IMG/VR virus record: IMGVR_UViG_3300017613_001674
Location: 1 to 35,857 of that record
Length of the DNA: 35,857 nt
Direction: 5' to 3' (one strand)
Source: a virus
The notes beneath the pieces were generated by a model, which saw nothing but the letters and a program-made list of their open reading frames with translations, searched no databases and was not told where the DNA came from. Position 1 is the first letter of the stretch. Each line of letters begins with the position of its first letter. The position numbers were made by a program, and so were the translations under genes. Below are positions 1 to 35,489 of the stretch, piece by piece.

Positions 1-335
1 CCGGAGCCGAAGCCGGAGCCGTCGCCGGAGCCGGAGCCGGAGCCGTGACCGTAGCCTGAGCCGGAGCCGTCGCCGTAGCCGTAGCCGGAGCCGTCGCCGT
101 AGCCGGAGCCGTGACCGTAGCCTGAGCCGGAGCCGTCGCCGTAGCCGGAGCCGTAGCCGTGACCGTAGCCTGAGCCGGAGCCGTGACCGTAGCCTGAGCC
201 GGAGCCGTCGCCGGAGCCGTCGCCGTAGCCGTAGCCGTGACCGTAGCCGGAGCCAGAGCCGTCGCCGTAGCCGGAGCCAGAGCCGGAGCCGTGACCGTAG
301 CCTGAGCCGTCGCCGTAGCCGTAGCCGTCGTCGTA
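1..335 (-). repeat. Hexanucleotide repeat tract encoding Gly-X dipeptides
   Basis: On the plus strand this tract is built from 6-base units such as ggagcc, gtagcc, gtcgcc and gtgacc. On the coding strand these read GGC-TCC, GGC-TAC, GGC-GAC and GGT-CAC. Unit order is irregular, and gain or loss of a unit keeps the frame. It is one of three such tracts in the window. Confidence 0.9.
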
Positions 336-362
336 GCCAGTATTCTTCAACAAGCGGGCCAT
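1..362 (-). CDS. Gly-Tyr/Gly-Ser repeat protein, copy 2, truncated at window edge
   Basis: This gene starts at the ATG at 362-360 and stays open to the window edge, giving about 120 codons with no stop. It begins MARLLKNTG and continues as G-S, G-Y, G-D and G-H dipeptides, because every 6-base unit encodes Gly plus one of Ser, Tyr, Asp, His or rarely Phe. The start overlaps the end of the upstream paralogue by 16 nt, so translation is probably coupled. The C-terminal domain of this family is missing here. A matching C-terminal remnant at the other window end (35760-35857, same strand) may be the rest of this gene if the genome is circular. Function is unknown; the sequence is low-complexity and probably disordered. 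Confidence in coding is high because the start and frame match two complete paralogues. Confidence 0.8.
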   Translation of the reverse strand, partial: MARLLKNTGYDDGYGYGDGSGYGHGSGSGSGYGDGSGSGYGHGYGYGDGSGDGSGSGYGHGSGSGYGHGYGSGYGDGSGSGYGHGSGYGDGSGYGYGDGSGSGYGHGSGSGSGDGSGFGS

Positions 363-375
363 TTGTCGATCTTTT
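336..375 (-). repeat. 40-bp leader repeat, copy A (identical to 35463-35502)
   Basis: This 40-bp segment spans the start codon and first residues of repeat gene 2 and the last codons of the gene upstream. It is identical, base for base, to 35463-35502, which holds the same position at the start of repeat gene 3. A shorter diverged version lies at the start of repeat gene 1 (about 829-860). It marks the 5' boundary of a duplicated cassette. Confidence 0.9.
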
Positions 376-847
376 TCAGTAGTCCTAGGACTTCTGCCTC
401 ATCTACAGAAACATCGTGCTCCTCTGCAATCTCTACCCATTCTTCTTTCCACTTATCAACCGTTCGACATTCGCATCCCACAGCTATTAGATTCCAGGGT
501 GGGATGATATAGACCAAGTACTCATCTTCAATAATGCCGATTTGAAAACCGTAGTCGTAACCGAAGCCGTAGCCGGATTCGTGACCGTAGTCGTAACCGG
601 AGCCGTAGCCGGAGCCGTTGCCGTAGCCGGAGCCGTCGCCGTAGCCGAAGCCTGAGCCTGAGCCGTGACCGAAGCCGGAACCGTTACCGTAGTCGTGACC
701 GTAGCCGTAACCGAAGCCTGAGCCTGAGACTGAGCCGTAACCGTAACCGTAGCCGGAGCCGTCGCCGGAGCCGGAGCCGGAGCCGTGACCGAAGCCTGAG
801 CCGTCGCCGTAGCCGTAGCCGGAGCCAGTATTCTTCAACAAAATCAT
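347..847 (-). CDS. Gly-Tyr/Gly-Ser repeat protein, copy 1 (complete)
   Basis: The 166-residue product has three parts. Residues 1-8 are MILLKNTG. Residues 9-101 are (G-S/Y/D/H/F/N) dipeptide repeats. Residues 102-160 form a non-repetitive domain with the motifs EYLVYIIPPWNL, GCECRTVDKW and EEWVEIAEEH. The same domain occurs in the copy at 35019-35489. The start ATG overlaps the stop of the upstream nuclease (ATGA), and the end overlaps the start of copy 2 by 16 nt, which adds the tail IDKWPAC. No signal peptide or membrane segment is seen. I do not recognise a function. Gly/Tyr/Ser-rich disorder followed by a small domain would fit a scaffold or condensate-forming protein, but that is inference. 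Confidence 0.85.
   Translation of the reverse strand: MILLKNTGSGYGYGDGSGFGHGSGSGSGDGSGYGYGYGSVSGSGFGYGYGHDYGNGSGFGHGSGSGFGYGDGSGYGNGSGYGSGYDYGHESGYGFGYDYGFQIGIIEDEYLVYIIPPWNLIAVGCECRTVDKWKEEWVEIAEEHDVSVDEAEVLGLLKKIDKWPAC
436..525 (-). repeat. 90-bp near-identical C-domain repeat, copy A
   Basis: This stretch encodes the core of the C-terminal domain of repeat gene 1. Compared by eye with 35099-35188 it differs at a single base (cagCtatt against cagTtatt), while flanking parts of the same domain have diverged. Such local near-identity suggests recent duplication or gene conversion. Confidence 0.9.
545..823 (-). repeat. Hexanucleotide repeat tract of repeat gene 1
   Basis: This is the same kind of 6-base Gly-X tract as at 1-335, but more degenerate. 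It includes GGT/GGC and TAC/TAT/GAC/AAC/TTC variants, giving G-F, G-N and D-Y units as well as G-S, G-Y, G-D and G-H. The degeneracy suggests it is older than the very regular tracts at 1-335 and 35208-35462. Confidence 0.85.
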
Positions 848-35018: not shown

Positions 35019-35489
35019 TTACGGTGATTCGGCTTTTTTCAGCAAACATTCTACTTCGGATTCTTCTATATCAACATTATGCTGGATTGCAATCTCCTCC
35101 CATTCTTCTTTCCACTTATCAACCGTTCGACATTCGCATCCCACAGTTATTAGATTCCAGGGTGGGATGATATAGACCAAGTACTCATTCCCAATGATGC
35201 CAATATAATGGCCTGAGCCGGAGCCGTGACCGTAGCCTGAGCCGGAGCCGAAGCCTGAGCCGTCGCCGGAGCCGGAGCCGTAGCCGGAGCCGTCGCCGTA
35301 GCCGGAGCCGTCGCCGGAGCCGTAGCCGGAGCCGGAGCCGTCGCCGGAGCCGTAGCCGGAGCCGTCGCCGTAGCCGGAGCCAGAGCCGTCGCCGTAGCCG
35401 GAGCCAGAGCCGGAGCCGTGACCGTAGCCTGAGCCGTCGCCGTAGCCGTAACCATAGCCGGAGCCAGTATTCTTCAACAAGCGGGCCAT
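35019..35489 (-). CDS. Gly-Tyr/Gly-Ser repeat protein, copy 3 (complete)
   Basis: The 156-residue product has MARLLKNTG (1-9), a very regular dipeptide tract (10-94: G-S, G-Y, G-D, G-H, few G-F), and the family C-terminal domain at 95-153 (IGIIGNEYLVYIIPPWNL, GCECRTVDKWKEEW). It ends KKAESP instead of IDKWPAC because no repeat gene follows it. The start overlaps the DUF6948-like gene by 16 nt, the same way copy 2 overlaps copy 1. The putative annealing protein follows after 55 nt. The regular tract and identical leader suggest a recent duplicate of copy 2. Confidence 0.85.
   Translation of the reverse strand: MARLLKNTGSGYGYGYGDGSGYGHGSGSGSGYGDGSGSGYGDGSGYGSGDGSGSGYGSGDGSGYGDGSGYGSGSGDGSGFGSGSGYGHGSGSGHYIGIIGNEYLVYIIPPWNLITVGCECRTVDKWKEEWEEIAIQHNVDIEESEVECLLKKAESP
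35099..35188 (-). repeat. 90-bp near-identical C-domain repeat, copy B
   Basis: This is the partner of 436-525, with one mismatch in 90 bases by eye. Sequence on both sides diverges (for example HDVSVDEAEV against HNVDIEESEV in protein), so identity is confined to this block. Confidence 0.9.
35208..35462 (-). repeat. Hexanucleotide repeat tract of repeat gene 3
   Basis: Regular 6-base units (ggagcc, gtagcc, gtcgcc, cctgag-type variants) encode Gly-X dipeptides on the minus strand. The tract is less degenerate than the one at 545-823. The other minus-strand frames through it are also open but simply mirror the repeat. Confidence 0.9.

Follow-up and report, generated by a model that had tools for sequence, protein, structure and literature searches.

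At both ends of a virus contig lie genes for proteins in which glycine alternates with a small set of other residues, designated here (Gly-X)n, and the question raised by this locus is what such proteins do and with which partner. The contig (IMG/VR record IMGVR_UViG_3300017613_001674), of 35,857 bases and classed as linear, was analysed over its full length and is referred to as the window. The initial annotation had described these proteins as a paralogous family with a common leader and a conserved C-terminal domain (C-domain), located in a recombination operon between a Cas4-like nuclease and a putative annealing protein. The architecture, paralogy and location hold, ORFs A and C being complete and sharing both leader and C-domain (Table 1); of the two complete and two partial proteins originally counted, A and C stand as such, while the partial ones are most simply a single gene, B, cut inside its repeat by the contig ends. 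The genes form an overlapping minus-strand run, with the Cas4-like gene, A and B at the left end and the tail of B, a DUF6948 gene, C and a 290-aa protein at the right end. Four nucleotides are shared between the start of A and the end of the Cas4-like gene, and 16 nt each between the start of B and the 3' end of A and between the start of C and the DUF6948 stop; the stop of B's probable 3' part overlaps the DUF6948 start (TAATG). The right-end tail is 68% identical to A's C-domain; since the contig is classed as linear, closure across its ends, which would join the two parts of B, can only be inferred. A DUF6948 partner at the opposite end is also found in three other (Gly-X)n contigs, and, of 80 DUF6948 contigs, 14 terminate no more than 260 bp beyond that gene on its downstream side vs. 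four on its upstream side.

Table 1. Features at the two ends of the window, with positions counted over its 35,857 bases.
Feature	Position	Strand	Length	Description
Cas4-like exonuclease	1773-844	minus		phrog_1990, E 1.3e-20; first of the overlapping gene run
Paralogue A	847-347	minus	166 aa	Complete; leader MILLKNTG, (Gly-X)n tract, C-domain (350-541)
Paralogue B, 5' part	362-3	minus		Leader MARLLKNTG followed by (Gly-X)n tract; truncated at the left contig end
Probable 3' part of paralogue B	35857-35755	minus		C-domain tail EIAEEHSVSIDKAEVIKLLKKAEKFLNQKKG, ending in a stop
DUF6948 protein	35755-35474	minus	93 aa	Pfam PF22253; between B and C
Paralogue C	35489-35019	minus	156 aa	Complete; leader MARLLKNTG, 86-residue (Gly-X)n tract, C-domain (about 35028-35204)
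Putative annealing protein	34963-34091	minus	290 aa	Family unconfirmed

Regarding the flanking genes, the identification of a Cas4-like neighbour is confirmed by its PHROGs match, to which a weak match to the TIGR00372 cas4 model, under that model's cut-off, can be added. The annealing protein finds no such backing, as no annealase domain is recognised in its sequence by Pfam, PHROGs or NCBIfam. The C-terminal part of this product (residues 186-230) weakly matches a Pol III epsilon/ExoX-like model.

The gene that answers the question of the partner is the one overlooked by the initial annotation. Its product is a member of DUF6948 by the curated cut-off of Pfam (42.3 bits vs. 27, residues 14-87), a family to which Pfam gives no function. 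As a sole query, the DUF6948 sequence of the window retrieved no relatives, and these were reached instead via the repeat. A 32-nt DNA pattern encoding G[S/Y]GYGDG[S/Y]GYG in any codons occurs three times in the window vs. none in 100 shuffles, so that the tract is not a product of chance, and at least 119 stretches matching it were found in IMG/VR. Among the matches listed, 50 records reach at least 28 kb and Pfam DUF6948 is present in 38 of them, in every case on the same strand as the (Gly-X)n gene, at most 764 bp away (median 58 bp) and upstream, 35 directly and 3 across the contig ends. The other pattern-found records mostly encode a DUF6948 homologue of about 100 aa at the equivalent position; this divergent group joins DUF6948 by hhalign (97.5%, E 8.5e-12), and two of the four members tested also weakly match the Pfam model, under its cut-off. 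With a combined, wider DUF6948 profile, an adjoining match is found at 80 of the 96 pattern-found loci among the matches listed; 11 of the remaining 16 have less than 200 bp of upstream sequence, and where there is room upstream a DUF6948-like gene is thus present at 80 of 85 loci, again among the matches listed.

The linkage also holds in the reverse direction. A search by DUF6948 alone, whose query alignments were built from loci first found via the repeat, gave 88 loci, namely the best 80 viral contigs, which are those nearest to one query, and 8 genome contigs titled Xanthobacter, Aurantimicrobium, Rhodopseudomonas, Acidobacteria, Methanoperedens, Aequorivita, Daviesbacteria and Myxococcales. 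By the fixed criterion of an alternating-glycine frame at most 700 bp downstream of DUF6948, a (Gly-X)n gene comes next at 84 of these 88 loci, among the matches listed, and at 86 on inspection, two contigs (L224 and L246) adding a short tract before they end. The same test just upstream of DUF6948 was positive in 3 of 80 cases and, at 1.5-2.2 kb downstream, in 0 of 58. These controls were taken within the records, a set based on random 15-mers having been dropped as it drew mainly related-looking records of similar size. Besides, the stop of the DUF6948 gene and the start of the (Gly-X)n gene overlap in 55 of 61 cases, usually by 13 nt. DUF6948 and the (Gly-X)n gene hence constitute an almost obligate and widespread phage gene pair, a two-gene cassette that is probably translationally coupled, and the near constancy with which an overlapping (Gly-X)n gene follows DUF6948 makes a functional partnership of the two proteins likely. 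The window itself contains the cassette together with two more tandem (Gly-X)n copies and a local C-terminal domain.

Several variants of the pair were encountered. In a second (Gly-X)n class, paired with the divergent DUF6948 group, the proteins have a short leader in ...PV and often a basic tail (RTRRR, RKRRR), as at loci L015, L020, L021, L023, L057, L065, L078, L091 and L114. At L101 (219-2451) six (Gly-X)n genes, and at L025 (1681-2971) five, are arrayed in tandem close to a single DUF6948-like gene, with conserved leaders such as MKIAINFEDSQNS... and ...GLKAFLKF. Contigs binned as Candidatus Methanoperedens, an archaeon (L259), and Candidatus Daviesbacteria, a candidate-phylum bacterium (L261), likewise carry the pair; these are possibly proviruses or misbinned phage contigs.

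Cultured and named phages encode the pair as well. In Pectobacterium phage Taid, genes for ExoVIII, Erf and SSB are followed by DUF6948 overlapping a (Gly-X)n gene. In Iodobacter phage phiPLPE, the tract lies in an unannotated gap behind DUF6948, near RecE and Bet (L169, 1186-1430), and in Chlorobiaceae phage CV-1-33 the stretch behind DUF6948 is annotated as a protein reading MAMALAMA..., which reads as the repeat in another frame (L170, 6283-6528). Vibrio phage IKEMa6-1 and the environmental genome MW202898 also fit the pairing. The absence or wrong frame of the partner gene in two of these annotations may explain its being overlooked; in the open-access literature searched, no description of DUF6948, of these repeats or of their pairing was found.

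The recombination context proposed for the window extends to other phages. RecT/ERF is recognised in 24 of the 50 (Gly-X)n records, in 20 of them at a distance of at most 4 kb, for an expected 5; none of 500,000 simulations reached 20. The terminase, taken as a control in these records, is that close in 3 of 22. In the second sample, found via DUF6948, RecT/ERF is recognised in 11 of 36 records, 6 of the 11 having it within 4 kb (expected 2.2, P 0.013). A PHROG scan near the (Gly-X)n genes returned ExoVIII, ExoVII, RecT, Erf and Bet families, none being found among the 25 top far families. PDDEXK_1 (PF12705) was rare (4 of 50 records), and Cas4-type nucleases are thus not the general neighbour at that sensitivity. 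The proximity is real but regional: as a gene pair of the early region, the cassette is often found alongside recombination genes, any early gene would show some proximity to RecT/ERF, and many early functions fit this neighbourhood. The constant partner of (Gly-X)n is DUF6948, not the recombinase.

As for the tract, the X positions of 72 tracts are occupied by Ser (38%), Tyr (27%), Asp (22%), Asn (4%), Phe (2%) and His (1%), with Lys and Arg together at 0.6%, Ala at 0.2% and Pro near zero. Glycine takes a median of 100% of the positions of one parity and 0% of the other, with almost no parity slips, and alternation is strict throughout the tract of paralogue C. The proteins are short (median 77 aa), and the order of the X residues is scrambled, whereas their composition is held in both low- and high-GC loci (32-67% GC). 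Synonymous codons vary all along (TCC 345 and TCT 271, TAC 294 and TAT 203, GAC 238 and GAT 168). That X composition and strict alternation are held while synonymous codons vary indicates that selection acts on the protein, and points to backbone periodicity, Tyr content and negative charge as the properties needed. The tract is not a basic nucleic-acid-binding tail and, being nearly devoid of Lys and Arg, is itself unlikely to coat DNA ends, as had been suggested at first.

At the boundaries of the tract, the conservation of the leader is in part explained by the overlap of its DNA with the 3' end of the upstream gene: at both the A/B and the DUF6948/C junctions, ...KWPAC with its stop and MARLL are read from a common 16 nt. 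In addition, the last residues of A, KIDKWPAC, are those ending the DUF6948 protein, which suggests that the extra (Gly-X)n copies arose by recombination at this junction. The C-domain of about 60 residues has 44 of 59 positions identical between A and C. Of 61 related (Gly-X)n proteins, 59 have less than 30 residues beyond the tract, and C-domains found on other (Gly-X)n proteins are different ones; the C-domain of the window is a local addition rather than a core feature. Whether it falls within an established family of different function was checked against the Pfam and PHROGs libraries, neither of which recognises it. No relatives were found by tblastn in phages or by searching viral contigs for relatives and for a degenerate motif, at the sensitivity used, nor by a local profile search over all collected loci. 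For paralogue C, AlphaFold2 from a single sequence gave a model of low confidence (pLDDT 38), in which a beta-beta-beta-alpha-alpha tail is suggested.

Other C-domains recur among (Gly-X)n proteins. One of about 110 aa, with the motif (F/Y)W(R/K)S...G.PSNGG...HAT..KW.GER, is found at loci L040, L060, L061, L109, L111, L116 and L121, and Pfam is blank for the one tested. Another, marked by DGxPTII (L130, 105-509), also occurs behind BspA-like repeats (VTHIGDWAF) in Riemerella phage CRP5; kinship of the C-domain of the window with this domain was considered and is not supported (hhalign probability 0.7%). In CRP5 (OQ268095.1, 46497-46710), near Erf, apparent BspA-like repeats take the place of (Gly-X)n ahead of the DGxPTII domain, and the repeat module may accordingly be exchangeable.

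For the DUF6948 protein, AlphaFold2 with 29 sequences yielded a high-confidence model (mean pLDDT 95.9), predicted to comprise three strands, a helix, two strands and a helix in this order. In VIA, the best 50 PDB rows are all Sm/LSm or Sm-like (Z 5.7-7.0), headed by 3by7 (Z 7.0, rmsd 2.9, 69 residues), a protein from an uncultured source whose title presents it as structurally similar to Sm/LSm-like RNA-binding proteins. In Foldseek, nearly all PDB matches are likewise Sm/LSm, the best with E 0.013 and probability 1.0, and none below E 0.001. The 29-sequence profile has no match among PDB chains at E up to 10, and no sequence relationship to the Sm, LSm, Hfq or Rof chains in PDB was found. 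With Z below 8 and no sequence link, the likeness is a resemblance and not a membership; DUF6948 is a predicted small barrel resembling Sm/LSm, and this resemblance could be just the common small-barrel arrangement.

From these sequences and models, what we infer, tentatively and at somewhat less than an even chance, is a two-component assembly in which DUF6948 binds a client while the (Gly-X)n protein self-assembles and clusters this client early in infection. Both proteins would act together at this stage. DUF6948, through its predicted barrel and perhaps as a ring like Sm proteins, would bind a client, the likeliest candidates being nucleic acid and nucleic-acid enzymes; the (Gly-X)n protein would contribute numerous Tyr stickers, borne on a backbone either flexible or silk-like, self-assemble and so concentrate the client in a replication/recombination zone, and the optional C-domains would fit the scaffold to individual phages. 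Condensation or scaffolding by the (Gly-X)n protein, as already envisaged in the initial annotation, is plausible, and the X make-up fits the scheme of Tyr-rich condensate-forming proteins, i.e. Tyr stickers with Gly/Ser spacers. Against it, Arg is the usual partner of Tyr in condensates and the tract is nearly without Arg; besides, in most of the records no RecT/ERF is recognised. That an Sm/LSm-like barrel and a separately encoded Gly/Tyr/Ser low-complexity protein widely build an intracellular condensate or filament round phage nucleic acid in tailed phages is rather doubtful; if true, it would be the viral, prokaryotic analogue of eukaryotic RNP granules, in which LSm and low-complexity components are likewise combined.

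The strict alternation could also be read in terms of fibres, as silk-type (GX)n sheets such as those of silk fibroin need it. DUF6948 would then be a dedicated chaperone or assembly factor and the (Gly-X)n protein would fold into silk-like beta sheets or fibres with glycine on one face, with no liquid condensate. Glycine alternation is indeed stricter here than a disordered sticker-and-spacer chain needs, and a chaperone-client pair fits the fixed gene order and overlap. Silk GX tracts are rich in Ala and Ser, however, whereas here Ala is almost excluded and Asp abundant, a 6-nt slippage unit alone would keep parity too, and the (Gly-X)n model is of low confidence, so that such a filament appears unlikely.

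A role in regulation of transcription or RNA, with DUF6948 acting like Rof, an Sm-like Rho inhibitor, or like Hfq, and the partner tuning or sequestering it, would agree with the Sm/LSm-like model and with the early-operon location. Rof is described as inhibiting Rho through obstruction of its binding site (PMC11018626). Such a regulator is distinctly unlikely, given that DUF6948 shows no sequence similarity to Hfq, Rof or any other Sm chain in the PDB, and it would leave the near-universal (Gly-X)n partner unexplained.

Two small overlapping genes spread across many phages, the partner being hypervariable and its copy number changing from the A/B/C of the window to the five- and six-gene arrays, also recall a counter-defence or toxin-antitoxin-like unit in which one protein is active and the other neutralises or delivers it. 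Yet a Gly/Ser/Tyr/Asp repeat would be unusual as a toxin or inhibitor, additional tandem (Gly-X)n copies without additional DUF6948 are atypical of toxin-antitoxin systems, and PADLOC, whose models cover defence and not counter-defence, returned 0 hits for six proteins; this reading is quite improbable. Finally, the tract might matter as DNA, as a recombination, packaging or replication site with an incidental protein reading, in view of its highly repetitive sequence near recombination genes and of the contigs that often end in it, but these ends are explained by the failure of short-read assembly in repeats, and the preservation of frame, start-stop overlap and amino-acid composition over varying codons and GC content makes it hardly credible.

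The reciprocal linkage makes of two function-less families, a predicted small barrel and a pure low-complexity protein, one testable system, common in environmental phages and often near DNA recombination genes. Should the partner self-assemble, phages would possess in this cassette a compact natural means of organising nucleic-acid processes within bacterial cells, and it would also be a source of short sequence-defined repeat proteins. The novelty resides in the gene pair as a system, and its biochemistry could yet be of a known kind.

Compared with known systems, the cassette shares its genomic neighbourhood in many records with the RecT/Erf and Cas4/ExoVIII modules of phages, whereas it is neither a nuclease nor an annealase by family match and many records are without a recognised RecT/ERF. 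DUF6948 exists as a Pfam family, whose (Gly-X)n partner is described in none of the papers found. Like Sm/LSm proteins, it is predicted to be a small barrel, from which it differs by a predicted helix between strands 3 and 4, a C-terminal helix and the absence of sequence similarity. Silk fibroin (GX)n has the same strict alternation of Gly with Ser and Tyr, while the phage tract is almost without Ala and carries Asp instead, is short and is phage-encoded. The prion-like low-complexity domains of the FUS type are built on [G/S]Y[G/S] and, like (Gly-X)n, are rich in Tyr and Gly/Ser and disordered by prediction; unlike them, the phage protein strictly alternates Gly, contains almost no Gln or Arg, bears 22% Asp at X and is a separate protein encoded by an overlapping gene.
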